The notes below the pieces were generated by a model. It made no database searches. It was not told where the DNA came from and saw only the letters and a list, made by a program, of their open reading frames with translations. From assembly GCF_015354405.1 (NCBI RefSeq), contig NZ_JADKYP010000004.1, forward strand, positions 186,001-250,000: DNA of 64,000 nt, given 5' to 3'. Every line of letters begins with the position of its first letter. Within the stretch, counting starts at the first letter, position 1. This DNA comes from Nocardia sp. BSTN01. GTDB taxonomy: Bacteria; Actinomycetota; Actinomycetes; Mycobacteriales; Mycobacteriaceae. Positions 2,552 through 25,586 of the stretch are shown here, piece after piece. A program made the position numbers and the translations under genes.

Positions 2552-4370
2552 GAAAGCGGTGCTCCTACTGCGGGTTTCGACCAAGAAGCAGCTCGATACT
2601 GCCATCGACATCGACCCCGACGGTCTGTCCATCTCTACCCAACGCGCCCAAGGACATGCCAAGGCCGACACGATGGGCGTGGACGTGGTCGAGGAATTCA
2701 TCGAGCCCGGCTACTCAGCCAAGACGATCGACAAGCGTCCCGTGTTCCGGGAGCTACTCAAGTACCTCGCAGACCACCCCGAAGTCCGGTACGTCATCGT
2801 CTACATGCGCTCGCGCGCCTTCCGCAACCGCTTCGACGCCGCCATCATCGAAACTCAGCTCAACAAGATGGGCGTGCGCATCGTCAGCGCCAAAGAGGAC
2901 TTCGGTGAAGGCCCTCACGCGGTGGCGATGGAGGGGATGCTCGACGTGATGAATCACCTGATGAACACGCTGCAGGGCTTGGACATTCAGGAGAAGATGC
3001 GCACCAAAGCTCGAAACGGCGGCACCCTCGGCTTCGCGAAAGTCGGCTACCTCAATGCTCGGGTCGAATACGAAGGCAAACAGATCAACACCATCGCCCT
3101 CGATCCAGGGCGGGCTCCCTTGGTACGCAAGGCGTTCGAGCTGTACGCGACCGGTGACTACGGACTTGAACGTCTCGAAGCTACCATGGCCGATCTCGGT
3201 CTGACCGCACGTGCACGCGGCACCATTCCGCAACGGCCTGTGTCGTTCAAGCTGTGGCACCGGATGCTGCAGGATCCCTACTACGCCGGCTGGGTTCAAG
3301 TGGAAGGCGAGCTTCGTCCCGGCCGACACGAGCCGATCGTCACCCAAGAACTATTCGACCGGGTGCAAGACGTCATGGACATGCGCAGTCGATTGGGACA
3401 GCGCGACCGCGTACTTCAGCACTACCTGAAGGGTGAGCTGTTCTGCGACCGGTGTCAGCGGCGCGGACGCAGCTCGCGGTTCATCTACACAGAAGCCCGC
3501 GGGCGAAACGGCCACCGGTATGGATACTTCCTATGTCGGGGCCGCCAAGACAGCCTCTGCGATATGCCCTACCTGCCCGCCGAACAAGTCGAACAAGCGG
3601 TCATCGACCACTACGCGAGCCTTCGGCTTCCGGCGGACTTTCACACCACCATCCATGAACTGCTGGACCAAGCCCTCGCCGACGAGCAATCCAGCGTCCG
3701 CACCATGCACATCAGCATGACTGCCCGGCTCAAGGAGCTCGACGCCAAGGAAGAACGACTACTCGACCTTGCCGCCGACGGGTCCCTGCCGCAGGCCAAG
3801 ATCAAAAGTCGGCTCCGCGCTATCGAGACTGACCGCGCCAAGATTCAGGCGAGCCTGGTGGCCACCGGGGCCGAACTCGCGGTCGGGGTTGACATCCTCA
3901 AACGTGGACTGGATCTACTCACTGATCCCGCCCAGCTGTACCGGACTCGCACAGACGCCGTTCGTCGCCACCTCAACCGAGCCTTTTTCGAGCGCTTGTA
4001 CCTCGATGTCGACGGCGTCACGGACGACCGCCTCAACCAGCCATTCGCCGACCTGCACGCAGCAGCTGGGATCCGGCCGGTCTGTGCCCACCCGAGCGCA
4101 CCATCCCGCGCCTCGACACGCCCGAATATAGAAAGCGGCCTTACCCTCCGCGACGTCCTTAAGGACCCCGGTTCGAGTAAGACCGCTGTGGTGGAGCTAA
4201 GGGGAATCGAACCCCTGACCTTCTCGGTGACGGCGGGATGGACTACTTCGGGCAACCGTGGACTGTCAAGTGTGCGCTGGAATATGGTCCTGAGCAGGGA
4301 AGATGTCAATTCTCGACAACGGAGGACGACTGGAGACTCTGGTCGATATCGCTCACGGCGAGTGAATTAG
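2511..4370 (+). CDS. Large serine recombinase
   Basis: A 619-codon frame. The N-terminal catalytic domain (about 14-150) has L-R-V-S-T-K-K-Q with the likely nucleophile S23. A recombinase domain follows (about 170-270, with the R-x-x-Y-x-G stretch 'DPYYAGWV'), then a zinc ribbon from about residue 309 (CDRC...C...C) and a coiled-coil-like region (about 385-430). A strong ribosome binding site (AAGGAGG) precedes ATG 2511. These enzymes integrate or excise elements without host factors. The last ~60 codons run across a displaced terminator and the tRNA-Ala-derived repeat at 4191-4226, so the original C-terminus was probably different. Confidence 0.88.
   Translation: MTQRTQPSKSHTSEKAVLLLRVSTKKQLDTAIDIDPDGLSISTQRAQGHAKADTMGVDVVEEFIEPGYSAKTIDKRPVFRELLKYLADHPEVRYVIVYMRSRAFRNRFDAAIIETQLNKMGVRIVSAKEDFGEGPHAVAMEGMLDVMNHLMNTLQGLDIQEKMRTKARNGGTLGFAKVGYLNARVEYEGKQINTIALDPGRAPLVRKAFELYATGDYGLERLEATMADLGLTARARGTIPQRPVSFKLWHRMLQDPYYAGWVQVEGELRPGRHEPIVTQELFDRVQDVMDMRSRLGQRDRVLQHYLKGELFCDRCQRRGRSSRFIYTEARGRNGHRYGYFLCRGRQDSLCDMPYLPAEQVEQAVIDHYASLRLPADFHTTIHELLDQALADEQSSVRTMHISMTARLKELDAKEERLLDLAADGSLPQAKIKSRLRAIETDRAKIQASLVATGAELAVGVDILKRGLDLLTDPAQLYRTRTDAVRRHLNRAFFERLYLDVDGVTDDRLNQPFADLHAAAGIRPVCAHPSAPSRASTRPNIESGLTLRDVLKDPGSSKTAVVELRGIEPLTFSVTAGWTTSGNRGLSSVRWNMVLSREDVNSRQRRTTGDSGRYRSRRVN
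4135..4186 (-). terminator. Displaced transcription terminator of tRNA-Ala
   Basis: An imperfect 52-bp inverted repeat centred on TTAA at 4160/4161. The outer arms are GCGGCCTTAC and GTAAGACCGC and the inner palindrome is GTCCTTAAGGAC. On the minus strand it is followed by TTTCTATATT, so it terminates leftward transcription. It sits 4 bp from the displaced tRNA-Ala 3' copy, exactly where the terminator of the original tRNA would be before the 21-kb element moved in. Confidence 0.55.
4191..4226 (-). repeat. Left attachment site: displaced 36-bp tRNA-Ala 3' end
   Basis: Identical over 36 nt and in the same orientation to 25551-25586 inside the intact tRNA-Ala gene. It covers the acceptor 3' strand, T-arm, variable loop and part of the anticodon stem, then diverges. 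It is the displaced copy created when the element used the tRNA 3' end as attB. Confidence 0.9.
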
Positions 4371-4389
4371 TTGGGACTTAGTTGGAAGA
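4364..4389 (+). repeat. Arm-type integrase site, left end of element
   Basis: 26 nt beginning GAATTAGTTGGGACTT, matching 25468-25493 with one mismatch in the same orientation. It contains two TTAGTTGG-like units 11 bp apart, the spacing of tandem integrase arm sites. It lies 138 bp inside the left attachment repeat. Confidence 0.68.
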
Positions 4390-4652
4390 GAGGAGGCTCG
4401 TCGCCACGGCGTGTCGTAGCGCCGACACGCGGTTGGTTTTCGGCATGAGCTAACTGTTGGCTGCCTGTAACTATCGGTCGACCTTCAACTCAGTTGGGGT
4501 CGCGCCGTCGAGGTGAATGCTGCGGTCGAGAGCTACGTTGTGCGGCATGCATGGACGTTCGGTCGCTCTCGCCGGTGTTGAGGTCCGGATCGAACTTGAT
4601 ACTTGAAAAGACCTGGTCTGTCGACAACTGGTAGCACTCGAACTGCTCGGCT
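4371..4652. other. Intergenic, no gene recognised
   Basis: About 280 bp between the end of the serine recombinase frame and the first minus-strand gene of the element. Apart from the arm site overlapping its left edge I see no supported coding frame, RNA or repeat. Confidence 0.5.
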
Positions 4653-4871
4653 CTACTTCCAACGCAGCCACTCGGGCAGGGGTTGATCGATTCGGACAGT
4701 CTGCGTCCGTTTCGGCATTTCCTCCGGCCCGGCGGTCAGGACCCTGCCGTCGGTCAAGCGGATCTCGAGATCGAAGTGCGACGCGGATGGGTAATGCTGG
4801 GTCCTGGATGGCTTCATCCCCGCAATTGTCGTAACCCGCACACCGAACGCGGATCGCGGTTTCTGGCCCAA
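4653..4871 (-). CDS. Small hypothetical protein
   Basis: Up to 72 residues, ending P-L-P-E-W-L-R-W-K. The C-terminal 45 residues have a regular strand-turn-strand look (FDLEIRLTDGRVLTAGP) typical of a compact beta domain, while the first 18 residues look unstructured. M19 (4817) may be the true start. It is co-directional with the next three leftward genes. No family recognised; it could also be a gene remnant. Confidence 0.4.
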   Translation of the reverse strand: MGQKPRSAFGVRVTTIAGMKPSRTQHYPSASHFDLEIRLTDGRVLTAGPEEMPKRTQTVRIDQPLPEWLRWK

Positions 4872-5062
4872 TCTCGCAGTTGGCTCTGCTGGGCGGCGGT
4901 CCGCACATGCTCCGGCCGGCTTCCCGTCTCCCCCGGGGGCATGCCCTTCTTAGCGCCCATGACGGTGGAGGCGCACGGGAACACGGTGGAGGCCGCCAGT
5001 CAGCAGGCCATGCGGCTGAAAGTCGAAGGTCGAAGGTCGCGGAATCTTCGGCTTCCTAACTG

Positions 5063-5329: not shown

Positions 5330-5360
5330 CCATGGGCAAACGGAACCACGGCCGGTTGAA

Positions 5361-6586: not shown

Positions 6587-6946
6587 CTAGGTCTGTGCGT
6601 CGGCCGCCAACGGGTTCGTAGCTCCCTCGTCCGGGGCGTACCCGCCGGGTCGTTCGTGGGTCTGTCCGGTGGCGAGGTTGTGGATGTCTGTGAGTTCGGC
6701 GAGTTCGGGTGGTATTCGGCCGCGGAGGTGCCCGAGGTCGGGGACGATGAGTAGCTCGATCCGGTGGGTGGCGACGTGGTCGAGGAGTGCTTCGGGGACG
6801 ATGAGGCTGCTGCTTTTGGTGAGGCCGGCGTAGTCGTACCCCAGGCGGCGTGCGACGCGGCGGGCCTGTAGATCCAGATCGTGAATGGTGCGTACGAGGT
6901 CGACGCATACGTAACCCATTGCGCGCGAGGTGTTCTCATCGTCCAT
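6587..6946 (-). CDS. Resolvase-fold-like small protein without catalytic serine
   Basis: 119 residues. Residues 10-95 have the order of a serine-recombinase N-domain: a 'GYVCVDL' strand, a helix carrying 'LARRLGYDYAGL'-type sequence, then 'HRIELLIVPDLGHL', which corresponds to the 'VDAVIVWDLDRL' region. The R-V-S catalytic motif and DNA-binding part are missing. Similar small proteins are common in actinobacterial mobile elements. It is preceded by a GGAG ribosome binding site and overlaps the upstream membrane-protein gene by 11 nt. Confidence 0.6.
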   Translation of the reverse strand: MDDENTSRAMGYVCVDLVRTIHDLDLQARRVARRLGYDYAGLTKSSSLIVPEALLDHVATHRIELLIVPDLGHLRGRIPPELAELTDIHNLATGQTHERPGGYAPDEGATNPLAADAQT

Positions 6947-7415: not shown

Positions 7416-7715
7416 ATGACTGTATTGCGATTGCTCGGTTCGGGATCGAAAGATGGCGGATGCCCGGCGTTGTATGCCACCGATGGCGACACCTTGATCG
7501 TGCAGGGGCTTACTACTCGTGGCGGCAACGCGGTGCTGATCCCGCACTCGCAGTTGCTCGAGTGGGCCGAACCGGGTAGCACGATCACTATGGAAACCAC
7601 CGAGACTCCGGCGTTGGTGCTTGTGGCCGGTACCCCGGTGACCGATGAGGTTCGGGCGCGGTTGATCTTGGATTCGGATGAGACTGCGGTGGAGGTTCCG
7701 CGATGCGGGCGATAG
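7416..7715 (+). CDS. Small protein of a DUF6879/Scr1 regulator locus
   Basis: 99 residues. ATG 7416 has a good ribosome binding site (AAAGGAAG). The sequence 'CPALYATDGDTLIVQGL' is typical of the small acidic proteins encoded beside DUF6879 and Scr1-type HTH genes in actinobacteria; biochemical function is unknown. It overlaps the next gene by 13 nt, so the three rightward genes 7416-9105 form one translation-coupled operon. Confidence 0.65.
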   Translation: MTVLRLLGSGSKDGGCPALYATDGDTLIVQGLTTRGGNAVLIPHSQLLEWAEPGSTITMETTETPALVLVAGTPVTDEVRARLILDSDETAVEVPRCGR

Positions 7716-8248
7716 TCGGCGAACTCGCGGGTGAAGGTATTTACGCGAAGTTCTTCCGCAACGCTCAGCGCAGCGCCGTACATGTCGAGGTGCAAGACGT
7801 CTACGAGGTCCCCGACGAGTACGAACCGCTGGTGCGCTGGCGGGAGACCGGCGAAATCCTCGAAACGGATGGCGGCAGGCAATGGTGTGCCCTGGTCGCC
7901 GAGACCGTCGCCCGTGGCGTGAACGTCGCGCGGGTGCGGGTAGTTACGGTCCCTCACACGGAGTACACGAACTGGCTGCTCGATGCCTGCGCACCGAATA
8001 TCACTGCGGGGGAACAGATTCGGTATCTACCGCGCCACCTCGTCGACGACCTGCCAGCCGATGACTTCTGGCTGTTCGACGGTGAGACGGTCGCGTTCAA
8101 CACAGTGGACGACAACGATGCCAACCTCGGACTCGCTGTGACCACGGACCGGGCGATTGCCGGGGTGTGCGCTGATGCGTGGGCCCGTTTGTGGGCAGCA
8201 GGCATCGACCGCGACGACTACGTGCGTTCGGAGTTCGCTGCCCGGTGA
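7703..8248 (+). CDS. DUF6879 family protein
   Basis: 181 residues matching the DUF6879 pattern: an N-terminal E-x-Y-x-K-F-F-R motif, a central acidic block with 'VEVQDVYEVPDEYEPLVRW', a 'VARVRVVTVPHTEYTNWLL' strand-helix and a C-terminal 'FWLFDGETVAFNTVDDN' motif. Members are found next to Scr1/DUF5753 HTH regulators, where they are thought to act as paired effector or antitoxin-like partners. It is embedded between overlapping neighbours on both sides (13 nt and 4 nt). Confidence 0.75.
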   Translation: MRAIVGELAGEGIYAKFFRNAQRSAVHVEVQDVYEVPDEYEPLVRWRETGEILETDGGRQWCALVAETVARGVNVARVRVVTVPHTEYTNWLLDACAPNITAGEQIRYLPRHLVDDLPADDFWLFDGETVAFNTVDDNDANLGLAVTTDRAIAGVCADAWARLWAAGIDRDDYVRSEFAAR

Positions 8249-9105
8249 GTACGAGTGTCGGACAGGCGAGGGCGGCCCTGGGAGCGCGGCTGCGTGAACT
8301 TCGCAGGGACGCTCGCCTGTCCGGCAAGAGCATGGCCGAATCGTGTGGGTGGCATCCGTCGAAGGTGTCGCGCATCGAGCTGGGTCGCCAGCAGCCAAGT
8401 GAGGATGATCTTCTCCAGTGGTGCCGGACAACCGGGTCGATGATGGTCTACGACGATCTGGTGGCGACGCTACGCAACCTGCAATCGATGTATCTGGAGT
8501 GGCGCAGAGTTGTCGCGTCGGGACGCGCCCACCGGCAACGCCAGTCGCTGGAGATCGAGGGCCGCGCCGATCATCTGCGATGGTTCGAATCCTGGGTTGT
8601 GCCCGGTCTGTTGCAGACACCCGACTACGCGCGCGCCATCCTGATCGAGTGCCGCAAACTGGTTCCCGGCGGACGCGACGATATCGAGGAAGCCGTTGCG
8701 GTGCGCATGACGCGACAGCGGATATTGCGTTCGGGGGGAAGACGTTTCGCTTTCATCATCGGTGAGGCGGCACTGCATCAGGTCGTCGGTTCGGCGGCGA
8801 TCATGGCGGCTCAGCTCCAGGCGCTCATCGGCCACGCTGCGAACCCACGCGTCGATCTGTCGATCGTGCCGCTGGCTGCTGCGGCGCCGATCGGCTCGCA
8901 TGGTTTTGCGATGTTCGACCGAGACAGCGTGATGGTTGAGACGATCAGCGCGGAACTCACGGTAACCCGCCCCTCCGAAATCGCCGTCTACGACGACGCT
9001 TTCAGGGCGATGCACGAAATTGCCGAACACGGGTCGGCGGCGGTCGGCATCCTCGCTCGTATCGCAGACGAACACGAACGAAAGCACGGTGCGGCCGATT
9101 CATGA
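8245..9105 (+). CDS. XRE-family regulator with Scr1/DUF5753 domain
   Basis: 286 residues from GTG 8245, which overlaps the DUF6879 stop as GTGA. The N-terminal XRE helix-turn-helix (about 6-62: 'LGARLRELRRDARLSGKSMAESCGWHPSKVSRIELG') is followed by the Scr1-like DUF5753 domain (about 90-275), recognised by 'WFESWVVPGLLQTPDYARAIL' and 'FIIGEAALHQVVG'. These proteins are transcription regulators, often controlling their own operon together with DUF397/DUF6879 partners. It is convergent with the relaxase gene (10 bp apart). Confidence 0.85.
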   Translation: MSTSVGQARAALGARLRELRRDARLSGKSMAESCGWHPSKVSRIELGRQQPSEDDLLQWCRTTGSMMVYDDLVATLRNLQSMYLEWRRVVASGRAHRQRQSLEIEGRADHLRWFESWVVPGLLQTPDYARAILIECRKLVPGGRDDIEEAVAVRMTRQRILRSGGRRFAFIIGEAALHQVVGSAAIMAAQLQALIGHAANPRVDLSIVPLAAAAPIGSHGFAMFDRDSVMVETISAELTVTRPSEIAVYDDAFRAMHEIAEHGSAAVGILARIADEHERKHGAADS

Positions 9106-9114
9106 TGTCGATCT

Positions 9115-12100
9115 CTACAGATCGAGGTCATAGCCAGGCCGGGCGCCGATGTCAGGTTCCGCATGGTCGAGGAGGTCTGGCTCGAAACCATCGAATTCCA
9201 CTCCGCCTGGTTGGGCGATATCGATGGCATCTTGGATCGCTTGCGCGTGTGACGACGGCTCGGAAGTTGTTTCTGTGTCGGCTTCTCCGTTCGGCGCGGC
9301 GGGTGCATGGGTCAGGTCGAGCCGGTGCCAGAGGGCGGCTGCGGGCATGTCGTCGGGGAGTGGGCGTTGGTTGGCGGCGGTGGTGAGGAGGGCTTCGATG
9401 TCGTGGCCGGCGTCGGCGGCGGTGTCTAGATATTGGGCGAGTACCGGCCACCAGGGGTCGGTGGGGAGGCGCGTGTCGATGCGTTTCGCGAGTGGGGACC
9501 AGGTGTGGGTGGCGGTGTGCAGGTCGCCGAGGGTATCGACGACTTGGGTCTCGAGATGCTGTTGGTGGTGGCGTTCTGCTGCGGGGTAGCGGCGGGGCCC
9601 GGTGGGGCGGAGGTCGGTGTCGGGGACGTGGTGGGCAGCACGCCATACCGCGAGTTGCGCTGTGAGGTCGTGGTTTTCGAGTATCGGGTGCGCCCATTTG
9701 GGTGCCGACGAGGGGGTCCATGCCTGGGTATCGGCGTGAATCTGGTGGGTCAGTGTGGTGATGATGCGTGCCCGGGCGTGAAGCTGTTGGGTGGTCTCGT
9801 CGTCGGGGAGTTCGGCGGGGATTGCGCGGGTCCAGGGCAGCGGCCCGGCGCTGGTGGAGTGGGTGCCGGTGGTGTCGAGGCGCCAGTCGAGGACGGCGGC
9901 CGGGTCATGCGCGGTATCGAGTTCTCGTTCGCTGGCGGCCTGTTGGAGTGCGCGGACCGGGTTGTGTCCGGTGATGGCGAGGGTGGCGAGATGTTGGCGC
10001 AATACGGGGTAGGCGGGGGAGTCGGTGAGGCCGGGCAGCAGTTGCTCTGCGGCGTGATCGAGTCCGTCCATGACTTCTTCGCCGAGGATCTTTTCGACAG
10101 CCAGGCCGATGGCGTCGTGGTAGGTATCGACGGCGCGACCGAGTCGTCTGTGGGGATTGAGCGTGTCGCAGAGATCCGCGTGGGCGCTGGTGTGGGTGGC
10201 GTCGCGGGCGAGAATGCGTTGCAGGACTTCAGTGCTGGTGCGAGGAAGAACGGCGGGTTCGCTCCAGTGGGAGTGTTCGTCACCGTCGCTGGTGGTTGCG
10301 ATGTAGGCGTGGTTGGCGTGGATGCCGCGGGTCATGGCGACGTAGAGCTGGTTGCGGGATTCGCGGCCGGTGAGCGCGACGTGGCAGGTGTCGACAGTGA
10401 TGCCTTGGGCGGAGTCGATGGTCATCGCGTAGCCGAGGCGCACGTGTTCGGCGACATAATCGGCGGGCAATAGGGCCGTGGCGCCGGGTTGTCGGCCGGT
10501 GCGCAGGTGTGTGGCGGTGAGGCTGCCGTCGGGGTGGACGGCGGTGATCGTCCAGCGGTAACCGTTGCGGACCCAGTCGTTGTCGCCGAGACGGATGCGC
10601 GGGTTGTTGCGCCGGGTGCAGATGATGTCGCCGGCCGAGGCGGCCCGGCCGTCGGCGAGGACCACTTCCGGGCCGGGAGGTGTGGTGGCTCGGGTGAGGC
10701 GGTCGGTGCGGGCGCGGGTGTTGAGGTCGGCGACGAGGTCGTGGGTGGGGGCGAGCATGAGGGTGTCGCGTCCGGCGTGGTGGTCAGCGAACCATGCCAT
10801 GTAGGTCTTGTCCGCGATGGCGGCCGGGCTGCCGGAGTGGATGCGCTGGTGGTCGAGGTAGTAGCCCAGACCGGCCGGATCGCCCTCGCGGAGGGCGAGG
10901 CTGGCGGCGGCTTCGTGGGGGTCGGCGATGCGGACGACGTCGGTCATGGTGACCGAGTTGGTGAGGTCGGTGGCGGTGCCGCCGGGGTCGATGGAGGGCA
11001 GTTGTGCGGTGTCGCCGAGGCAGCGGATGGTGGCGTCGCGGTGGGTCAGGAACTCGAACAGGCGCAGTCGTTTGTCGTCGCCGAGTTTGACGTGCTCGTC
11101 GACGACGACAAGTGTGCGGGCGTCGATTTCCAGCAGCCATTCCGGCAACTGTGGCGGAGATGGAGAGTCGGTGATCGTGTGAGCGGTGGCTATGTGCTGG
11201 TCAAGGATGTGCAGTAGACGGTCGACGGTTTCGACTCGGATACCGGTGGTTTCGGCGAGGACCGCGGCTGCGGCGGCGGTGGGCGCGAGGCCGAGAACCG
11301 TGCCGCCGGAGGCGTGCCAGGCGTTGACGAGCACGCGCATCGCGGTGGTTTTCCCGGTGCCGGCGGGCGCATTCGCAACCGCGATCCGTAGCGGTGAGCA
11401 CGCAAATACGGTGACGACCGCGACTTGTCCGGGATTCACCGGCTTGCCGAGATTGGCGGGATCGGTGTTGTAGGAGTCGATCGCCGAGGCGACCACAGCG
11501 GCGGGAAGAGTGCGGGCGCCGGGTTGTACCGAGAGGTCGACGAGGCGTTGTTCGGTGCCGAGCCGACGCGCGGAAGTGTAGGTCTGACTGCCAGGAACGG
11601 TGTAGACGCTGGTCCCGTCGCGACGCTGAAAGCCCGTCGGTGGATGCTGGAGAACAGCTTCGGCGGTGACGTCCGGATCGCCACGCGCGAGGGACCTCGC
11701 GGGCGATAGCGCTTCGCGGACGACGGCTTCGACCACGCTCGGCCACTGGGTCGGATGGATGTGTCCGCGGGTTTGGCGTTCGGTTTCCGCGCGGATGTGG
11801 TGGTGCTGCCACACCGAGCGTTGCCCGGAAACGACGTCGACGACGTGGTCGGCGGTGCGGGAAATCCACGCCTCATCGATCGTCGGGCGAGAGTGGTCGG
11901 CGCGGTTGAGCGCCGAAGAGACGATCCCTTCGACCGCATTCGGTCCGCCGAGCAGTGTGGCTGCGTCGGTGTGCCAGTCGTGGCGTTGTTGGGCGTAGGA
12001 ACGTGAGAGGTGTTTGGCGGGGCGCGTTTCGAGAGTGGCGCGCTCAGCGAGAGCGAACAGTTCTTTCGGTGTCGGTTCCCGTCCGAGTTGCTGCTGGAAC

Positions 12101-15691: not shown

Positions 15692-15981
15692 ACACCCGGG
15701 CTCCGATCAGCACGCCAACCTCGGACGGCGGTGTCGTTTCGTCCGGTCGGTGCGCCGGCGGCAGATACAGGACGTTCGCCGGACCGGTTCGGCCTGTCGT
15801 ATCGAGCGGTGTGAGGGATCGGACGCGGCTGTCCGTGGCCAGGTCGTAGCCGGGACGTCGGATAGGTACGCGGCTGGATAGGGGCCGCCGCTGTGGCATT
15901 CGATGTGCGCGGTAGGCGCCTATCGTGAGTGGGTCACCGTCCTGGACTGGATCGGTGTGTGAAGGGTGAGCGGGGTAGCTG
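15692..15981. other. Intergenic with a possible decayed frame
   Basis: 290 bp. A leftward frame over about 15700-15860 has GC-rich third positions and protein-like sequence (DLATDSRVRSLTPLD, then PSEVGVLIGARVF) but no convincing start or family, so it may be a remnant. Confidence 0.25.
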
Positions 15982-16428: not shown

Positions 16429-16591
16429 CCAACAACCACCCGAGCGCGATCACTCTCCCAACCATCTGGCAACGAGGGACGCGCGCCCGCCGGGTGGGGC
16501 AGCGGTCTGGTTGAGTCTGCGGCTTCGCACAACCAAGGATGTGGAGCCTCCTCGAGCCGCGCTCCCGGCCGCACCAGGGCGCCAGACGGGG

Positions 16592-17299: not shown

Positions 17300-17647
17300 G
17301 CCTAAATCCCTTCTCGGACAGCAATTTCGTGTTTGCCCGCCAGTGCGTCTGCGAGCGTGAGCGGTGGCCAGGGTCGCGGGCCCGTTCGGACACTCGGCCG
17401 TGCTCGAATTCGGCGATAGCACCCAGGGATCTGGAAGAACGTGCGCCTGATCGCGGTGGCGGTGTCGCTGCCCTGATCAAGCACCACCATCGACGCCGCG
17501 CGGTCCTGCAGTGTCTTCGATTAGCGGGGCGAGTCTCGCGTCGACGTGGTGCAGCGTCTCGAGCCGAAGGTGGCCGCTCGGTGCCGCTGCGGCCCGCTCA
17601 CCCATTCCATGCAAATCAGCACACTGCAGAACCCGCGGATGCACTTG
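17300..17647. other. Intergenic, no gene supported
   Basis: About 350 bp between two leftward genes. Short open frames in both directions have no convincing start or protein-like composition. No RNA or repeat seen. Confidence 0.4.
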
Positions 17648-18010
17648 TCACCAGCGCCATTGGAGGTGGCCATCGCCGAGGAATTCGAGCGAGTACGCCT
17701 GGTGGTCCAATCCGTCCTGGGTCTTGATTGTCCATGTGCCGTACTCGCACCAATCAACATCAGCCTGTGTCACGTCGTGGCGAGCCAACTCCTGTATGCA
17801 GAGTCGGTCGTATGAGTCGTCGTCCTCGGGCAGGTCCTCCGTCTCGTTCAGCCACTGCAGGTAGCTGGCAGCTCGGTCCGAGCGTGCTCCCCGTGCAGGG
17901 TCGGAATCTTGCAAAGTACCGTTAGCCCAGGGGGTTTCATAGGAGTATGCGGTGATCAAGCCGACGGGCTCCTGATTGCGGAACAGCTGCATCGGCGTTC
18001 GTAAATCCAT
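17648..18010 (-). CDS. Small acidic hypothetical protein
   Basis: 120 residues. Starts M-D-L-R-T-P-M-Q-L-F; M7 may be the true start. A beta-rich N-terminus with 'GLITAYSYETPWANGTL', an acidic linker with 'EDLPEDDDSYDRLC', and a C-terminus ending W-R-W after 'AYSLEFLGDGHLQ'. The size, acidity and C-terminal beta strands resemble orphan immunity-type proteins of actinobacteria, but I cannot place it in a named family. Confidence 0.6.
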   Translation of the reverse strand: MDLRTPMQLFRNQEPVGLITAYSYETPWANGTLQDSDPARGARSDRAASYLQWLNETEDLPEDDDSYDRLCIQELARHDVTQADVDWCEYGTWTIKTQDGLDHQAYSLEFLGDGHLQWRW

Positions 18011-18215
18011 AGGGTCAGGCTAGAGGAGCCACTCCGGGGCGCATCGTGCTGTGAATCCGGCAACGCAGGCGTGCTCGTAGATACATGAGCTGACGTAGGG
18101 GGGAAGTAGTCGCCGAGTTCGATCCACAGCGGGCCGGCTGGGCTCGTCGAGCACGCCCCCGTCGGCGAGGAGCGGCCCTGGTAGCCATCACGCGGTGACT
18201 GCCGCGGCCGTGGGG

Positions 18216-18638
18216 TCATGGCCGGAATCCGATGCTGATTCGGGTGATGATCGGTTGCGGTGCGCGGTCCTGGTAGAGGCAGCTCAGCATCTCACGCACG
18301 GCCAAGACGCCCAGTCCGCGATAGACCGGCGCGCAGGAATCGACCAAGGATTGTTCGATGGCGCGGACCACCACTCGCGCCGAGACCGACTCGCCGCGGC
18401 GGCGGTCCGGGTCGTGGGTGCCCGTGCCCGCCAACTCGATCAAGGCCCCCTCGGCGAGAGCGTCGTTGAGTTCGGTGTAAGGGCATGGTGCGCAGGCGAA
18501 TTCGACCGATGATGGTTCGCCGTCGGGGATAGGCTCGAAATCCACTACGGCGTAGCCCCAGTCGGGCGCACAATTGCCCGGCGATTTCTTCGAGCGCACC
18601 GAGACTCCGCGCACCGGCCGGGCCAGCAGGATCGTCAT
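18216..18638 (-). CDS. Hypothetical protein with a decayed paralogue in the same element
   Basis: 140 residues, ATG 18638. It has a central 'ACAPCPYTELNDALAEGALIEL' region and a C-terminal 'VYRGLGVLAVREM...IITRIS' block. That C-terminal block recurs as a pseudogene at about 14410-14600, showing local duplication. No transmembrane segment. The family is not recognised. Confidence 0.55.
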   Translation of the reverse strand: MTILLARPVRGVSVRSKKSPGNCAPDWGYAVVDFEPIPDGEPSSVEFACAPCPYTELNDALAEGALIELAGTGTHDPDRRRGESVSARVVVRAIEQSLVDSCAPVYRGLGVLAVREMLSCLYQDRAPQPIITRISIGFRP

Positions 18639-18859
18639 GTCGCGATGATACGAGGCTGCGAACGGTCGAGCACCGATCTCGACTGCGACCCTGCGGTCGA
18701 TCCGAGGAAGTCAGTAGCCGGCGTCGTCCGGACCAGCAAGCGCCGCTTCTCGGGAAACGCCCGGGCCGCAGAGGATCCGCCACCATCAGACGGGGTCAGC
18801 ATGTCGTTGGGTTGCTGTAGCTTTCGGGCAGTGATCGCGGATCGGCGCGGTCCGCGTGG

Positions 18860-19498
18860 GTGGAAGGCGCGACAGCGTTGAGTGAAGAACAGGTCCCTGG
18901 CACCGCTGGTGCGCCGGTCGGTGGAGGCAAGCGGCGAGGTTGGGTGCGGTGGGCGCGGTTCGCGGGGCCGTTGGTCGGGGCCGTGATCGGGGTGACGGCA
19001 GCCAACTGGGGACAGCTGTGGCACTCCGGTCACGCTGATGCCGATGCCCATGCGGTGGTGGTGTTGCCCGCGGCGGTCGAAGGGTATGCGCAGCAGACCG
19101 ATGCCGACGCCGCGGCGCTGGTTCAGCAGATTCTCGCCCAGGGCCAAGGCAAGAAGGGGATCGGTACGCACGTGGCCGGTGTGTACGGGCCGGATGGATC
19201 CAGTGATGTGGTGGTTGTGGAGGCGTTGACCGGGCATGCGGGGCACCCGGATCAAGACATCGCCGACGATATCGACAAGCAGCGGGCCGCGACCGGGGTG
19301 ACGATGAGTCCGGTGGATGCCGGCCCGCTGGGCGGAAAAGCGGTGTGTGGCACGGGAACCAGTCAAGGCGCGGCGGCGGCGATCTGCGAGTGGATCGACG
19401 CCGACACCTTCGGGCGCCTGGTCTGGAGTGGCGCGCTCGCAGCGGACGGTCCGAGCCATCTGCAGGAGATCCGCGCCCAGATCGAGCACACGTACTAA
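18860..19498 (+). CDS. Single-pass membrane or exported protein
   Basis: 212 residues from GTG 18860; TTG 18878 is an alternative. A basic segment 'GGGKRRGWVRWARF' precedes one hydrophobic helix (about residues 34-50), after which about 160 residues lie outside the membrane, with two Cys (V-C-G-T-G and A-I-C-E-W) that could form a disulfide. It is followed 17 bp later by the DUF6301-like gene, so the two are probably co-transcribed. Function unknown. Confidence 0.55.
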   Translation: MEGATALSEEQVPGTAGAPVGGGKRRGWVRWARFAGPLVGAVIGVTAANWGQLWHSGHADADAHAVVVLPAAVEGYAQQTDADAAALVQQILAQGQGKKGIGTHVAGVYGPDGSSDVVVVEALTGHAGHPDQDIADDIDKQRAATGVTMSPVDAGPLGGKAVCGTGTSQGAAAAICEWIDADTFGRLVWSGALAADGPSHLQEIRAQIEHTY

Positions 19499-19515
19499 AG
19501 GGAACGACCAGCATC

Positions 19516-20031
19516 ATGCGGATAGACCTCGACCGTGCCCTCGCCGTCGTCCAGGCCGCGATAGCGTTCGACTGGACCTGGACCACCGACGACCTGCCCG
19601 GCTTCGCTCACCGTGTGGGTTGGCAGGTCGAGGGTCTCGACCCACCGACGATCACCACCAACTTCGATGTCAACCGCACCGACGCGGTGGCCTACCTCGA
19701 CCACAGGCCTCGGCCCGTCGGCGCCCGGTCGGTCCACCGCATCTGCTACTACTACACCGACGTCGTGCTCGACGACCCGAGCGTCAAACCGCAGCTGGAC
19801 AACGCGTTCAACACAATCGCCCCCCGGATACACGAACTCGCGGGCGAGATCCTGACCGAAACCTGGTCGCGCAACGACACCCGGATGTTGCGCTGGGATC
19901 TTCCGAACCTGGTCGTGAAACTCTGGGTCAACGACGGTGCCGGGGATATCGATCTGGTCAATCCAGCGCGGCAAGCGCGTGACGACGAGTTCGACCGAAT
20001 GCTCGAGTCGTCGGAAGAAGACACCGGCTGA
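19516..20031 (+). CDS. DUF6301-like protein
   Basis: 171 residues from ATG 19516, preceded by AAAGGGA. The N-terminus (a V-V-Q-A-A-I-A-F-D-W-T-W-T-T-D-D-L-P-G-F stretch) and the later 'RDL-x-N-L-V-V-K-L-W-V'-like strand resemble the DUF6301 family found repeatedly in Nocardia genomes, often near secreted-protein loci. The family has no known activity. It pairs with the upstream exported protein. Confidence 0.6.
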   Translation: MRIDLDRALAVVQAAIAFDWTWTTDDLPGFAHRVGWQVEGLDPPTITTNFDVNRTDAVAYLDHRPRPVGARSVHRICYYYTDVVLDDPSVKPQLDNAFNTIAPRIHELAGEILTETWSRNDTRMLRWDLPNLVVKLWVNDGAGDIDLVNPARQARDDEFDRMLESSEEDTG

Positions 20032-20152
20032 AGCACCTTCCAAGTACTGGGCCCGAGCTCGTACTGAGCTGGAAATGAACTACCGCGCGGACCGGGTGCT
20101 CGATTTCGACGCCTCGGTCAGATCTGGATAGCTTCGGGTGGTCGGCGGGCGA

Positions 20153-21235
20153 TCATGAATCGGTGCGGGAGATGCCCAACTCGGCCTCGAGATAGGACAT
20201 TGCGACGTGGCCCCAGGAGGAGAACGTGACTTCGTTTGGACCGTTGACGCCGAGGACATCGCGGAACGTGGCAGCCGTCCGCTGTGCCACATCACCGAAT
20301 GCCACATTCCTCCAGTGGCGTCCACGCGGTGCTAGCCACCCTGGGTGTTCAAAGCCGTAGGCCTGCTGGGGCGCCCATGTCCACCCCAACCGCGTCATCC
20401 GCTGATGAAACTCGTCTCGACTGAGCCCGGCCGACTCCCACATGACCGACTCATTGGCGATGGCGAAGTTGTCATTCACGAACTGGACGAAACACTTGTC
20501 CCGATCAACTCCCGGCGCCGACAACGTCAGCATCGCACCTTTCGGTAGCGTGGTGAGGACCCATTCGAGTCGCTCAACGAAATCTGCCCAGTCGCAACAT
20601 TTTTCGTCAGTGCCGCGTTCACTCGGACGATCCGGGGCGATCGAGGTCAGCTTGCGTGTGATCCCGTGGAGAGCGTCGACGGGCCCGTTGTCGTCGAACG
20701 TGCTGTAGCGCAACCGCTCCGGCGTCGCCTCCAGCCCGTCACGGAGAACCTCGATTACTGCGGCAGCGATCTTGGAGCGCGCGACCGGGTCATTTGGCCA
20801 GTAGGTGCGCCATTGCAGCGCGGTTTCCGGGCGCCGGGCGACTCTGGCTCGTGCTCGACTATGGGCAGGCCGTGCCAACTCCTCGGGTGTCCATTCTTCG
20901 GCGGCTTCTTCGGCGGGGGTGACCCATCGCGGATCGGGCATCCACACCGCGAGCTCGGAGACGACCCGCGTGCTCGAGTCTGCCCCGACAATCGTGCTGA
21001 TAGATGTTCTTCGGTGCGATCGAAGCACCGACAACAAACGGTCACGGACTTGGTGATCGGCCGGAACGGGAACCTTGATCAGTACCTCGTCGCCCCAGAC
21101 GTAGAACATCACTTCGTGTCCGGACGCGTTGTCGCGCAGCCGGATACCGTTCCCGGAGCGCGGTTGGTCCTCGCCGAAGTCGAACAGATACTCCGGCATG
21201 TCCTCGAGGATCCGCGCCCAGCCGTTTTCAGTCAT
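20153..21235 (-). CDS. TY-Chap domain protein (YbjN/type III chaperone-like)
   Basis: 360 residues. An N-terminal region (1-120) carries 'IRLRDNASGHEVMFYVWGDEVLIKV'. A TY-Chap-like domain from about residue 213 is recognised by 'DWADFVERLEWVLTTLP', then a 'CFVQFV' strand, then 'RLGWTWAP'. TY-Chap domains are related to YbjN and type III secretion chaperones and are predicted to bind peptides or toxin domains. A paralogue with the same domain order lies at 21899-22861 on the other strand. Confidence 0.68.
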   Translation of the reverse strand: MTENGWARILEDMPEYLFDFGEDQPRSGNGIRLRDNASGHEVMFYVWGDEVLIKVPVPADHQVRDRLLSVLRSHRRTSISTIVGADSSTRVVSELAVWMPDPRWVTPAEEAAEEWTPEELARPAHSRARARVARRPETALQWRTYWPNDPVARSKIAAAVIEVLRDGLEATPERLRYSTFDDNGPVDALHGITRKLTSIAPDRPSERGTDEKCCDWADFVERLEWVLTTLPKGAMLTLSAPGVDRDKCFVQFVNDNFAIANESVMWESAGLSRDEFHQRMTRLGWTWAPQQAYGFEHPGWLAPRGRHWRNVAFGDVAQRTAATFRDVLGVNGPNEVTFSSWGHVAMSYLEAELGISRTDS

Positions 21236-21240
21236 CTTTG

Positions 21241-21898
21241 TCTCCCCGATCCTGTTGTCGGCGTGACCATACGTGCCGGTACCGACAACGAAACGATCAC
21301 CACCGAGCAGAGTCTGCCGCGGCGGTCTACCCGCCCGTCTGCGTCACGACAGCCATCGCCGGCCGATCCTTCTTGTCTGCAACTCTGACATCTGCCGGGA
21401 AGACCTACTACTGAAAGGCGTGGGAAACCCCCAGATCACCTGCGAGTCCGCACGAAAATGTCAGCGTCTCGGCCGCTTCGAAATGTCAGTGCACACGCTA
21501 CTGGCGAACTCGAGGACATTCAGGCCGGCTGCCGCGCCTGCCGGGGCGGTCGGGCTTTCTCAGCGTGGCATCGGATTCCGGTCCCCGGAGAAGGCCTGGC
21601 CGCGCGCGGACAGCGCCTCGGCTGGCCAACGGCCACGCGAGTGTGTTTCCAACCACGGACCGTTTAGCAATCCGCGTACACGGTACGTGCTACTGCCCAT
21701 GTCTGCGAGACATGTTCCCCCGGAATACATCTCGTGAACGACCGTATCCGGGCGCTGCTGACCAACGACAGCCCTACACACTCCGGGGGTTTCTGGCGTT
21801 CGGTCAGCGCAGCATGCGGCATGCGCGGGCGCTGGGAGTCGATGTTGTCGTTGGGGTCGGATACGTTTCTCGCGACAGAGTGACACGGGAGGACGATC
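21241..21898. other. Long intergenic region between divergent TY-Chap genes
   Basis: About 660 bp. No supported gene. It contains a broken copy of the start of the 13582-14358 gene (about 21330-21400). It should hold promoters for both TY-Chap genes; a GGAGG ribosome binding site precedes ATG 21899. Confidence 0.4.
21330..21400 (-). pseudogene. Remnant of the 5' end of the 13582-14358 gene
   Basis: Leftward, ATGGCTGTCGTGACGCAGAC is identical to the first 20 nt of the gene starting at 14358, then the copy stops early (M-A-V-V-T-Q-T-G-G-stop). The upstream GCAGACAAG and GCCGG segments also match. It is a decayed duplicate of that gene's start region. Confidence 0.5.
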
Positions 21899-22861
21899 AT
21901 GACGGCCAAGGGCTTGGAGAAGCTGCAGGCTGCGATCCCTGAGCTGGTGTTCATCGAGTTCGACGATGATGCCGAACCGATCCAGAAATGGAAGTTCGTC
22001 AGGTTGCGCGACCGCGGTTCCGGTAACGAGGTCGTGGTCTACGAGAACGGGAAGTCGGTCGAGATCACGATCGCCGGCCCGGTGGATCCGGATGCTCCGC
22101 CCCAGGCGCGCACGGTGTTGCAGAACGGGGCGATTTGGCCGCGCGGGTCCGCTGACGGCGAACGCTTTGTTATCGGCTGGAACCCTATGCGCGCCGAAGA
22201 CAGTTACATCCAACAGGTGTCGGCTTCGGTCATCGAGATCATGCGCGACGGGCTGGGAATGGACCTCGAGCGCGTTCGCTACACCGCGGGCGACGAAACC
22301 GGATACCAGCCCGGGCCGTGGGCACTGCGTGACCTGTTGACCGCCGAGCAACCCACCGAGCGCGGCGCGCCCGATCGGTGCACCGACTGGACGGATTTCG
22401 CCGAGCGATTGGAATGGGTATTGAGCACTATGCCCGGCTACGACATCGTGACCGTCGATGCCCCGGCAGTGGTTGATCTCGGTTCGATCCAATTCCAGCA
22501 GGACGATGGGAGATTGGAGGCGACCATGATCACATCGGACACCGTCGCTGGGTTCGGTGACCAGGACCTTCGGCTGCGGGCACTGGGCTGGCGAGCGACA
22601 GAGGGACCGGGAGACCCCTATGTGGAATGGCTGTATGGCCCGTTCTGTTCGTCCGCCGGTTTCATCGACCGTCGCCTTGACCGAATTCCGCACCTCGCGG
22701 TCGACACTTTCCGCACGGTGCACGGCGTCAACAGCCCACAAGACCTCGCTATCCGCGGCGATGAGCAGACCGTTGTCAACGGCCCCCAGGCTTATATCAG
22801 CAGAGAACTCGGCATCCCCTGTCTTCCCTGGGAAAGTCCCGCGACAGCCGCGACGGCGTAG
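21899..22861 (+). CDS. TY-Chap domain protein, paralogue
   Basis: 320 residues. Same order as the protein at 20153-21235: an N-terminal 'VRLRDRGSGNEVVVYENGKSVEI' segment, a middle helix 'ASVIEIMRDGLGM', then from residue 161 'CTDWTDFAERLEWVLSTMP', a 'IQFQ' strand, 'LRALGW', and a C-terminal 'YISRELGI' helix matching 'YLEAELGI' in the other copy. It is followed 3 bp later by a lipoprotein gene, so a chaperone-client or chaperone-surface-protein pair is possible. Peptide binding is inferred from the domain only. Confidence 0.68.
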   Translation: MTAKGLEKLQAAIPELVFIEFDDDAEPIQKWKFVRLRDRGSGNEVVVYENGKSVEITIAGPVDPDAPPQARTVLQNGAIWPRGSADGERFVIGWNPMRAEDSYIQQVSASVIEIMRDGLGMDLERVRYTAGDETGYQPGPWALRDLLTAEQPTERGAPDRCTDWTDFAERLEWVLSTMPGYDIVTVDAPAVVDLGSIQFQQDDGRLEATMITSDTVAGFGDQDLRLRALGWRATEGPGDPYVEWLYGPFCSSAGFIDRRLDRIPHLAVDTFRTVHGVNSPQDLAIRGDEQTVVNGPQAYISRELGIPCLPWESPATAATA

Positions 22862-22864
22862 GCG

Positions 22865-23515
22865 GTGTATCGCGACCGCCACCCACACCGCGAAGCCGGG
22901 ATCCGATGGCGGGCAGTGGCCGTGTTCGTGCTCGCGACCGTTCTTGCGCCCGCGCTGGTTTCGTGCGCGCAATCGCATCGCGGCGGAACCGAATCAGCAA
23001 GCGGCTCAGGGTGGACGAAGATGCCTGAGCTCACCTATCTCAACGATTTCCCGGTCGAGCCACAGATGACGGAGCAGATCGCTCAGGCGAAGACCGTCGA
23101 GCACTTATCGGAGACGATTCGAGGGCTTCCCGCGGAGTGGACTCTGACCATCGGTGATCACTGGCAGGGCGAGCCATCGAACCACGCGCGAATGCTGGAC
23201 AAGTGCACCTTCGAAAAGGAGGTGCCACATGCGCCGTACGGACTTTGGATCGACTATCACTTGGACGGCAGCAATGATCCGCTGGCCGAGTATCTACCGG
23301 CTCTACGTTCGATCTGGAAGTCCTTGGGATGGACTCTGACGGAGAACGTGGCAAATCCCCGAGTCCTCAAAGCGACCACGCCTGACCATTTCGCCCTGAC
23401 AGCCGCCCAAACCCCTGGCACCGGTGAAACGATGATCACGACGACGTCGCCGTGTTTTCCGGAGACGAATCGCGGTGGCGCCGGCCCGTTGCCGGGTTCC
23501 ATCCCTCGCTCGTGA
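22865..23515 (+). CDS. Lipoprotein of unknown function
   Basis: 216 residues from GTG 22865. The signal peptide has a basic start, a hydrophobic core 'AVFVLATVLAPA' and the lipobox L-V-S-C with C34 as the lipidated residue. The mature part is about 180 residues with 'IGDHWQGEPSNHARMLDKC' and a second Cys near the C-terminus. It is expected at the outer face of the membrane. It lies 3 bp after the TY-Chap gene, so it is co-transcribed. Confidence 0.7.
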   Translation: MYRDRHPHREAGIRWRAVAVFVLATVLAPALVSCAQSHRGGTESASGSGWTKMPELTYLNDFPVEPQMTEQIAQAKTVEHLSETIRGLPAEWTLTIGDHWQGEPSNHARMLDKCTFEKEVPHAPYGLWIDYHLDGSNDPLAEYLPALRSIWKSLGWTLTENVANPRVLKATTPDHFALTAAQTPGTGETMITTTSPCFPETNRGGAGPLPGSIPRS

Positions 23516-23885
23516 TCATGTGTAGTCGGGGGTTCAGTGGGTCCAGGTTTGGGTAGCGTACGACCGATGGTGCTGGTGGCGCCCGGCATAAGTAGCTGAG
23601 CCGCGGCGGTTGTCCGGTTGGCGTGACGGTCGGTGCGAAGCTAGCCCGCCTGCCGGTATCGTGGCGTATGCGAGGAGCTGACTGGTCTCGGGTAATAGAC
23701 CCGTCAGGAGTATGTCGTGGCAAAGGAACGCCCGTCCTCATTCCGCCCGCATCTGTCTGCCGTTTGTGCGAGGCGCCCTCATCAAAGTGATCGGAGCCTG
23801 GTCCCGGTTTCCGAATTCGGCGGACCACCCGCCATCGTAGCTAACTCTCAGCGAACATATCTCGCTTGATCTTGGCCGCAATCCG
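23516..23885. other. Intergenic, upstream of the excisionase
   Basis: 370 bp with no supported gene. It is presumably the control region of the xis-int pair; no operator or promoter is clear enough to call. Confidence 0.4.
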
Positions 23886-24104
23886 ATGTCTTCTGATGCG
23901 GAGTATCCGGCCAGGCCGATCCGGCGATGGGTGACCACCAGCGCAGCCGCTGCGCATATTCATGTGCATCCGGAAGTCCTTCGGCGCTGGAACCGGCAAC
24001 GAGACAGGTATCCGTGGCTGCCCAAGCCCAAGCGTGTGGGGAAGGACTTTCGTTGGGATCTCGATGCTTTGGATGCGGCGCTGGATGCGCTCGACGAGGA
24101 GTGA
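23886..24104 (+). CDS. Excisionase-like small HTH protein
   Basis: 72 residues: 'VTTSAAAAHIHVHPEVLRRWNRQ' forms a helix-turn-helix, followed by 'LPKPKRVGKDFRWDLDALDAALDAL', the wing and final helix of MerR/Xis-type excisionases. It lies 22 bp upstream of the integrase. It would bend DNA at the arm sites and favour excision of the 21-kb element. Confidence 0.75.
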   Translation: MSSDAEYPARPIRRWVTTSAAAAHIHVHPEVLRRWNRQRDRYPWLPKPKRVGKDFRWDLDALDAALDALDEE

Positions 24105-24126
24105 GATCGGCTGATCGGTTTCGGCG

Positions 24127-25452
24127 GTGACGCGAGGGAGGCCGGCGCGGGCGATCGGGGTTCCTGGTTCGCCGATGCTGACGGAGTTGTCGCCGGGGCA
24201 TTGGTGTGCTCGGCTTCTGGTGCGCGATGCGTCCGGGAGGCGGCGTGACCTCAAGCGGGTGTCGCCGGTGCGGCTCGATGCGCGTGGCCGGAAGATCCCG
24301 GACCGCAACGGCTCTCGGGCGCTGGATGAGGTTTTGGCCGCGGCCGCCATGATCCGGGTCGACCTCGGTGGGGAGCTGTCGGAGTCTACGACGGTTCGCA
24401 AGCTGTGGCTGCTGTATCGCGCGTATCTGGAGGAGCAGGGGCGTGCGCCGGGGACGCTCGAGCGGTACGACGTGGTGGCGGAGTTGTTCAACACCGCGTT
24501 CGGTGAGCGACGGCTGCTCGAGGTCACGACGTCGTCGGTCGAGGCGTTCCTGAAAAGCCTTGGCGCGGCCAAAGGGCCTTCATCGATGCGGACCGGACGC
24601 AACGTGTTGTCGGGGATGTTCCGCTACGCCGTCCGCAAGGACGCGCTCAGCGTCAATCCTGTCCGAGAGTCGCAGTTGACCAAGAACATCGAAGCCAAAG
24701 GCCGCACCGGCGGCGCTCGCGACATCACTATCGAGGAGCTGCGGTTCATGCTCGCGGCGGTGCGGACCTCGCGGCTGCCGTGCCCGCGCAAGCTGTCTCG
24801 CGCGGAACGCAATCGCGGGACGCCGGTGAAGTCCTATACCGCGCCGACGGTCGCGGACTACTGCGAGAGCACCGACCTGGCCGATTGGGTGACCCTGCTC
24901 GCGGCTACCGGCCTGCGCCGCAGCCAGACGCTGGGTCTGCTGTGGTCGGACATCGACCTCGACGACTGCACGCTGCGCGTGAGCGGCAAGGTTGTCCGCG
25001 TGAAGGGCCAAGGCCTGGTGCGGGTGGAGAAGGACGACGATCCGAAGAACCGTCGCGGAGTGATTGCGCTGCCCGAGTTCGCGGTGGAGATGTTGCGCCG
25101 CCGCAAGGTCGCGCTGGCCGCCCGCAGGCTCGCGTCACCGCCGGATCCGAACGCGACGGTCTTGGATCTGGTCTTCCCGTCCACGGTGTGGACGCTGCGC
25201 GATCCGCAGAATGTCGGCCACGAGTGGCAGCGAGTCCGCGACGCCCTGGGCATCCCGGACGACGTCACCGCCCACAGTTTCCGCGGCGCGGTCGCCACGA
25301 TTCTCGACGACGCCGGCCTGTCTGCCCGAGTCACTGCCGACGTCCTCATGCACGTCGATCCAGCCATGACCCAACGCCACTACATGGCCCGAGGCCGCGC
25401 CCACAGAGCAGCTGCCGATGCGCTGGACAGAGCCGTCAGCGGACAGTTCTGA
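24127..25452 (+). CDS. Tyrosine recombinase (integrase) of the tRNA-Ala element
   Basis: 441 residues from GTG 24127. N-terminal arm-binding region (20-75), core-binding domain (about 85-180), catalytic domain (about 200-435). Catalytic residues: R264 (ATGLRRSQ), H383 and R386 (HSFRG), H409 (LMHVD) and nucleophile Y419 (QRHYM). The 'LRRSQTLG' box is a variant of the usual 'LRRGEALG'. It sits 16 bp from its arm site and 99 bp from the attachment repeat at the right end of the element. Confidence 0.92.
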   Translation: MTRGRPARAIGVPGSPMLTELSPGHWCARLLVRDASGRRRDLKRVSPVRLDARGRKIPDRNGSRALDEVLAAAAMIRVDLGGELSESTTVRKLWLLYRAYLEEQGRAPGTLERYDVVAELFNTAFGERRLLEVTTSSVEAFLKSLGAAKGPSSMRTGRNVLSGMFRYAVRKDALSVNPVRESQLTKNIEAKGRTGGARDITIEELRFMLAAVRTSRLPCPRKLSRAERNRGTPVKSYTAPTVADYCESTDLADWVTLLAATGLRRSQTLGLLWSDIDLDDCTLRVSGKVVRVKGQGLVRVEKDDDPKNRRGVIALPEFAVEMLRRRKVALAARRLASPPDPNATVLDLVFPSTVWTLRDPQNVGHEWQRVRDALGIPDDVTAHSFRGAVATILDDAGLSARVTADVLMHVDPAMTQRHYMARGRAHRAAADALDRAVSGQF

Positions 25453-25467
25453 AGAACCACGCTCAGC

Positions 25468-25493
25468 GAATTAGTTGGGACTTTGTTGGAAGA
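25468..25493 (+). repeat. Arm-type integrase site, right end of element
   Basis: 26 nt matching 4364-4389 with one mismatch, with the same internal 11-bp period, between the integrase stop and the attachment repeat. Confidence 0.68.
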
Positions 25494-25550
25494 TCCGACC
25501 AACGAGGTAGGTCTTCGGGCGGAAGAAACCCGCCCTGACCTGCAAGCTGA

Positions 25551-25586
25551 GTGGAGCTAAGGGGAATCGAACCCCTGACCTTCTCG
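25551..25586 (-). repeat. Right attachment site within tRNA-Ala
   Basis: 36-nt direct repeat identical to 4191-4226; here it forms the working 3' end of the tRNA gene, so integration preserved tRNA function. Confidence 0.9.

Follow-up and report, generated by a model that had tools for sequence, protein, structure and literature searches.

The locus studied here raises the question of why the gene for a large serine integrase should end in the antisense strand of a tRNA gene, and of what has been inserted there to bring this about. The window, that is, the whole stretch of 64,000 nucleotides that was analyzed from Nocardia sp. BSTN01, corresponds to positions 186001-250000 of contig C141 (our label for the window's contig) within a 7.79-Mb assembly. 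It contains a single tRNA gene, tRNA-Ala(CGC), at positions 25551-25624 on the minus strand, and a preliminary description of the sequence had reported one integrative element in that gene. Sequence comparisons now suggest that two unrelated integration systems are stacked at the same 3' end of tRNA-Ala(CGC), an element with a tyrosine integrase next to the tRNA (element A) and, behind it, an element with a serine integrase (element B). We consider it likely that both elements were stacked on this tRNA end, that the attachment site attP of element B lies inside its own serine integrase gene, and that integration splits this gene. Throughout, tRNAs and tmRNAs were called by ARAGORN and protein families by Pfam and PHROG; G-numbers designate relatives' genomes, G000 being the host genome, and L-numbers designate loci or stretches fetched from genomes, of which L009 lies on the window's contig (L009:12324-13071 = C141:138324-139071).

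Two integrative elements at the 3' end of tRNA-Ala(CGC)

Element A (4191-25586) is an integrative, probably mobilizable element that measures 21,360 bp from repeat to repeat. It is bounded by exact 36-bp direct repeats of the tRNA-Ala 3' end; the left one (attL, 4191-4226) is at the same time the tRNA side of the right junction of element B, and the right one (attR, 25551-25586) lies within the target tRNA gene, the 3' end of which is restored by the element. Arm-type sites of 26 bp with one mismatch between them were located at 4364-4389 (left) and 25468-25493 (right), in agreement with the preliminary description. When the host genome was searched with the 82-nt tRNA region, the 10 matches listed were the tRNA itself, the copy at 4191 (39 nt, 97%) and eight others of 24-72 nt with 76-96% identity. 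Since these matches are few and imperfect, the 36-bp repeat is not a common dispersed sequence, and genome-wide dispersal, which had been named as a possible objection to the boundaries, is ruled out.

With the tRNA and its upstream side as query, a match was obtained in 149 of 149 genus genomes. At the tRNA-Ala loci of 13 relatives (L018-L030), identity with the window ends at 25548-25551 in nine cases, and the remaining four (L022, L023, L025, and L027) carry on into the right, integrase-bearing end of an A-type element. G134 harbors an A-type element at the same tRNA. Its left end (L060:5101), where homology begins at window base 4190, is 94% identical to window positions 4190-4480 over 294 nt; an A-type right end is present at its tRNA-Ala (L061:19658), and the two ends are about 34.6 kb apart. 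The left flank of this G134 element is found directly 3' of an uninterrupted tRNA-Ala in G035 (96% over 2085 nt), G102 (95% over 2188 nt), and G079 (in two pieces), which supplies the comparison with an empty site that the preliminary description had proposed. The tRNA loci of the relatives and the G134 element support both boundaries of element A as well as the integrase to which they had been ascribed. Among 25 loci of related integrases, the window's included, 15 show a convergent tRNA-Ala (10) or tRNA-Thr (5) at 86-138 nt 3' of the gene, and the other 10 are without a tRNA up to 400 nt from the gene. Element A itself is ordinary, and the earlier statement that the insertion is fully delimited holds for it, but not for the island, which is composite, with A forming just the layer next to the tRNA. 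Relics of A-type right ends at L070:2157-2308, L071:5736-5888, and L073:6898-7045 have the start of an unrelated reading frame in place of the tRNA. The 2.1-kb segment that follows tRNA-Ala in G035 was considered as a possible serine element and rejected, its open reading frame (ORF) resembling, by eye, a GGDEF-EAL protein.

The right end of element B occupies window positions 1-4198, and the remainder of this element lies to the left of the window. BLAST of the right end of A against the contig revealed a decayed A-type integrase at C141:138324-139020, next to a further 51-nt piece of A-type right end (C141:139021-139071) in which the tRNA end is reduced to 8 nt, GTGGAGCT. Adjoining the left core of B, the sequence TACTCGAA mirrors TTCGAGTA at the opposite end, and from the left core with its mirrored half-site we conclude that B spans about C141:139064-190198, or about 51 kb. 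As the left end of B is joined to an A-type right end and a decayed integrase, the implied order from oldest to youngest is an old A-type relic, B, and the present A. Core synteny with G078, G002, and G035 picks up again at C141:108489, so that the whole accessory region at this tRNA amounts to about 103 kb (C141:108489-211551). When 18 ORFs of B were scanned with Pfam, the families matched included a type I restriction system, GmrSD, ArdA, MT-A70, a Replic_Relax protein, and a transposase; there were no matches to drug-resistance families. The decayed integrase is about 96% identical in its two pieces, is without residues 1-109 and 271-366, and appears to be what remains of an A-type element that was there before. 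To the left of it, a gene that by eye was named CtaG-like was tried as a chromosomal anchor and discarded, as it has matches in 17 of 17 genomes that are not beside tRNA-Ala; strong matches were found only in G035 (96%) and G079 (78%).

The serine integrase gene of element B is open across its core, with its probable tail at the other end of the element

The gene at 2511-4370 on the plus strand represents the integrated form of the large serine integrase of B and encodes a protein with Resolvase, Recombinase, and zinc-ribbon domains that also matches a PHROG integrase. As far as the core at 4191 (amino acid 560) its codons are its own, and from there it runs through the antisense of the tRNA and the left end of A; the domains recognized by Pfam cover residues 17-368. 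The attachment site seems to consist of a short core with inverted half-sites, TTCGAGTA at one end of the element and TACTCGAA at the other, as in large serine integrases. A search for the half-site by regular expression gave no match; the half-sites on the tail side stay valid.

Homologs of the B-type serine recombinase (E<=1e-60) occur in 39 of 151 genus genomes, and 30 loci were fetched. A tRNA or tmRNA was present in the fetched stretch for 26 of them (tmRNA 4, Ala 8, Val 9, Pro 4, Met 1). The window's own locus, where A now lies between the gene and its tRNA, is one of the four without. Wherever a half-site was recognized (25 of the 30 loci), the serine integrase gene crosses the core without a stop and in one single phase into the antisense of the tRNA or tmRNA, whichever RNA is the target.

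The continuation of this reading frame is found at the opposite end of B. From the left core onward, L009:13064-13399 is an open stretch that keeps to the phase of the serine integrase gene; its product of 111 amino acids has a match to HTH_58 (E 2.6e-5). Homologs of this tail are present in 32 of the 151 genus genomes, and a tail profile run across the order matched 39 of 397 genomes, belonging to 18 of 85 genera. Local alignments of the tail begin at residue 1, that is, at the core, in 21 of the 30 loci and later in seven, and two gave no match at the cut-off; GTGGA and TACTCGAA are invariant across 11 aligned loci. For the relative placement of both parts, 52 integrase and 43 tail matches listed were taken as input, and a pair was counted when both lay on the same contig within 150 kb. 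The tail was located upstream on the same strand in 12 pairs (on 11 contigs, with G118 counted twice), downstream in one (G034), and on the opposite strand in none; the other integrase and tail matches have no partner within this range. Values of dN/dS for the tail are about 0.1-0.4 in 10 pairs, also when the first 20 codons are left out, which points to purifying selection. The predicted fold of the tail shows three helices in its second half at a mean pLDDT (predicted local distance difference test) of 70.5, and a fold search of the PDB with this model gave a best E of 0.3, which is not significant. Two more tail homologs in the host, at G000:C45:15180-15452 and G000:C152:170884-171153 (E 2.9e-10), hint at further serine-type elements.

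Natural genes in which both parts are joined exist as well. G120 contains an unsplit ORF of 749 amino acids that holds integrase and tail. With this protein as query, 20 of the 36 matches listed end at residues 601-609 (the core being at 604), four span the core, three cover the tail only, and nine end elsewhere; the core-spanning matches are G120 (twice), G135 (with one TGA), and G025. The open frame across the core, the tail in phase at the far end, and the natural unsplit genes together make it most likely that attP is located within the integrase gene. In G120:C16, two integrase-plus-tail junctions (L173 and L174) lie about 72 kb apart, one of them with the complete unsplit gene, perhaps as parts of a tandem array.

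The tail might instead be a separate small gene beside attP, its common frame and openness being by-products of the conservation of attP. Such an ORF could have the GTG of the core as its start codon, the initial codons of the tail coincide with conserved attachment-site DNA, and the joining of integrase and tail is deduced from DNA. However, there is no stop before the core in any of the 25 readable serine genes, both parts reside within one ORF in the natural genes, and selection on the tail extends past the first 20 codons. Also, what precedes the GTG in the integrated state is a terminator-like hairpin (judged by eye) and not a ribosome-binding region. We regard a separate tail gene as improbable.

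Several observations nevertheless speak against a gene that is split by integration. The unsplit genes sit in chromosomal contigs (G120, and G135 with its one TGA) and might represent borders between elements in tandem, and no tail was found in the plasmids, phages, and viral contigs searched. The tail in G034 (L183, G034:C87:138790) is on the wrong side of the serine integrase of the same contig, the sole exception in geometry, and several pairs rest on partial matches (the tails of G026 and G045; the integrases of G086 and G129). For the element at the tmRNA of G134, an empty site, which in itself speaks in favor of the proposed integration, is seen as an uninterrupted tmRNA-hairpin junction, detected by BLAST, in G000, G037, G035, G002, G102, and G078, five of which share about 1 kb of flank, and the tmRNA of G079 is uninterrupted too, but without a BLAST match; in this comparison, however, the spacing between flank and hairpin varies by about 100-420 nt. 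Furthermore, the integrated form keeps all recognized integrase domains and may stay active, so that the split need not inactivate the integrase. Finally, boundaries, stacking, gene halves at both ends, conserved phase, purifying selection on the tail, and natural unsplit copies are all features apparent from sequence, and the split of the B gene is deduced from these, not from an observed circle or an excision.

Proposed course of integration

For a serine integrase gene that carries its own attP, the following course of events can be proposed. B, inserted by its large serine integrase, would have displaced an older A-type element at tRNA-Ala, and A would then have landed on the right junction of B. 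The circular form of B would carry one uninterrupted gene, the last 100-150 codons of which encode the helix-turn-helix tail, and would thus make a tailed integrase. At the 3' end of a tRNA or tmRNA, a crossover inside GTGGA would part the tail from the integrase, leaving the recognized integrase domains at one end of the element and the tail at the other, and the integrated gene would take its last codons and its stop from the strand antisense to the RNA gene. In the strain studied here, the borrowed end of the serine gene has been replaced once again, by A, and the stop at 4370 lies inside A. The junction of B still has 36 bp of the tRNA, and B might therefore still be able to excise.

Direction, affinity, or stability may depend on the tail, and loss of the tail would be expected to change the activity of the enzyme, most simply as a built-in switch that acts after integration. 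A more specific version, which we offer only tentatively and consider rather doubtful, is that the tailed enzyme of the circle integrates and that loss of the tail gives an enzyme that is unable to re-integrate or favors excision, without a separate directionality factor, the tyrosine integrase encoded directly upstream being perhaps a second self-splitter.

Relation to known integration systems

According to the portion of a review that treats the topic, splitting of the integrase gene on chromosomal insertion is described only in archaea. In the SSV-type ('suicidal') archaeal integrases (SSV1, pTN3, and pT26-2), attP is in the integrase gene, which is split on integration, typically at a tRNA (excerpts of PMC8371274), and both an attP within the integrase gene and its split on integration are seen in B, as a pattern of sequence and not as a reaction. 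In contrast, SSV-type enzymes are tyrosine recombinases whose catalytic part becomes separated from the N-terminal part (PMC8371274, same excerpts), whereas the bacterial serine integrase of B would keep its recognized catalytic domains and lose only a C-terminal tail. B thus appears to work like an SSV-type integrase without being a member of that group, as it belongs to the serine family and has a Nocardia host.

Serine integration into tRNA genes is known and called rare, a Mycobacterium group in tRNA-Leu and phiRSM1 being examples (excerpts of PMC3218068). B resembles the serine integrases of actinomycete integrative and conjugative elements (AICEs; tRNA-Leu) and of the phage phiRSM (tRNA-Ser) in placing a serine recombinase at a tRNA gene (excerpts of PMC3218068 and PMC4471427). 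Unlike B, phiRSM has a small, resolvase-like recombinase, and attP of phiRSM1 is between two genes (PMC4471427); in the excerpts of PMC3218068 and PMC4471427, splitting is described neither for the AICE tRNA-Leu integrases nor for phiRSM. In the integration-dependent immunity of mycobacterial phages, integration alters the C-terminus of a phage-encoded protein at the attachment site, as proposed for B, but there the altered gene is that of the repressor and not of the integrase, and most described systems use tyrosine integrases (excerpts of PMC8092301). No self-splitting serine integrase was recognized among the papers listed in searches of the open literature, subscription journals being mostly outside this coverage.

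If the split is real, self-splitting would have arisen independently in the serine family seen in Nocardia, tail homologs of which are present in those 18 of the 85 genera sampled across the order. For serine integrases, which are in wide use as tools for genome work, an attP within the reading frame of the enzyme would offer a natural and testable switch of directionality. A split would also explain why serine recombinase ORFs can terminate within antisense tRNA sequence, and it would give a rule for locating both ends of serine-integrase islands, which are without long flanking repeats.

Gene content and class of element A

The pair of excisionase and integrase genes noticed earlier at the right end of A was confirmed on the plus strand: the tyrosine integrase (24127-25452, alternative start 24268) is recognized by Pfam (Phage_integrase) and by PHROG integrases, and the Xis-like ORF of 72 amino acids (23886-24104) by a PHROG excisionase (E 1.1e-5), with no Pfam family at E<=0.1. 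This tyrosine integrase would recombine the 36-bp, tRNA-identical attP with the tRNA and thereby rebuild it. A MobF (TrwC-type) relaxase of 1371 amino acids with a helicase domain is encoded at 9115-13230 (minus strand) and is 87% identical in G134. Further genes on the plus strand encode a DUF6879 protein (7703-8248) and a HTH-DUF5753 regulator (8245-9105). Most of the cargo region (13582-23515) is without family match; it includes genes for a DUF6301 protein (19345-20031, plus) and for two TY-Chap3 proteins (20153-21235, minus; 21899-22861, plus), and no long match to the G134 element was found in it. Long parts common to A and the G134 element are the left end, the relaxase region (8632-13385, 88%), and the excisionase-integrase end (23625-25887, 94%), and the only other match listed is short (6605-6934, 71%, opposite strand). 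As only the ends and the relaxase region are common to both, they represent a backbone with exchangeable cargo.

A possesses its own integrase, matching attL and attR, and a MobF relaxase, the features of an integrative mobilizable element (IME), and resembles IMEs in combining integrase and relaxase (excerpts of PMC5357655 and PMC3218068); no mating apparatus was found among the ORFs scanned. A Pfam scan of 20 ORFs of A gave no match to a secretion ATPase, coupling protein, translocase, or replication protein, most cargo ORFs being without any match; in particular, there was no FtsK/SpoIIIE-type translocase or replication initiator as in an AICE. Nine proteins of A compared with PHROGs gave matches only for integrase and Xis, and PADLOC found no defence system among 10 ORFs. 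The many cargo ORFs without family match and the larger size of the G134 relative (about 34.6 kb) would suit a remnant of a larger conjugative element or prophage, but the Pfam and PHROG results are not those expected of such a remnant, which seems unlikely to us. A is thus most likely, as judged from its genes, an IME with largely unassigned cargo, and its MobF relaxase would let a conjugative system present in the cell carry the excised circle. The stacking of A and B resembles the tandem accretion of IMEs, integrative and conjugative elements, and AICEs; unlike in those arrays, the stacked neighbor uses a serine integrase (excerpts of PMC5357655 and PMC3218068).

The hairpin at the right junction of element B and the genes upstream of the serine integrase

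The hairpin at 4135-4186 (minus strand) had been taken for the native terminator of the tRNA, displaced by the insertion. On the minus strand, window positions 4126-4190 fold with -33.2 kcal/mol (z -5.5; 0 of 200 shuffles as good), and the hairpin contains the attP half-site of B (TTCGAGTA) and overlaps the 3' end of the serine integrase gene. Hairpin ends of this type adjoin the tmRNA in G134, G118, G117, and G144, and the same kind of half-site precedes the core there, which indicates that the hairpin end belongs to the serine element. A single tRNA-Ala island with a displaced native terminator is very improbable: the hairpin is stable and would have been 3' of the tRNA before A inserted, but it overlaps the end of the serine integrase gene, its counterparts precede tmRNA in other genomes, close relatives have different hairpins after tRNA-Ala (a similar end is beside tRNA-Ala only in G144), and the opposite end of B is located 51 kb to the left. 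The native 77-nt terminator, used as BLAST query, had no match listed in the host contig. Before A arrived, the hairpin of B may have served tRNA-Ala as a substitute terminator. The varied hairpins that follow the same tRNA-Ala in relatives (L018-L030 and L033) give the picture of a hotspot at which incoming elements apparently carry terminators of their own.

Upstream of the serine integrase, three genes on the plus strand encode a protein of 142 amino acids with a Resolvase N-terminal domain (220-648), an excisionase-like HTH_17 protein (645-1013, the ORF possibly starting at 639), and, directly adjacent, a tyrosine integrase (1010-2551). A related tyrosine integrase is upstream in seven of 29 other serine loci. 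Inspected by eye, the tyrosine integrase gene contains what resembles the antisense of a tRNA 3' half near 2265-2315, with coding continuing beyond it, and a comparable peptide is seen in six of eight upstream tyrosine integrase genes, ours included. This stretch has no close match among host tRNAs. Searched against 150 genomes (E<=0.001), it matched nine sequences, namely the window, the ortholog in G117 (95%), four at 77-79%, and three of 21-22 nt; it is possibly a second gene-internal attP.

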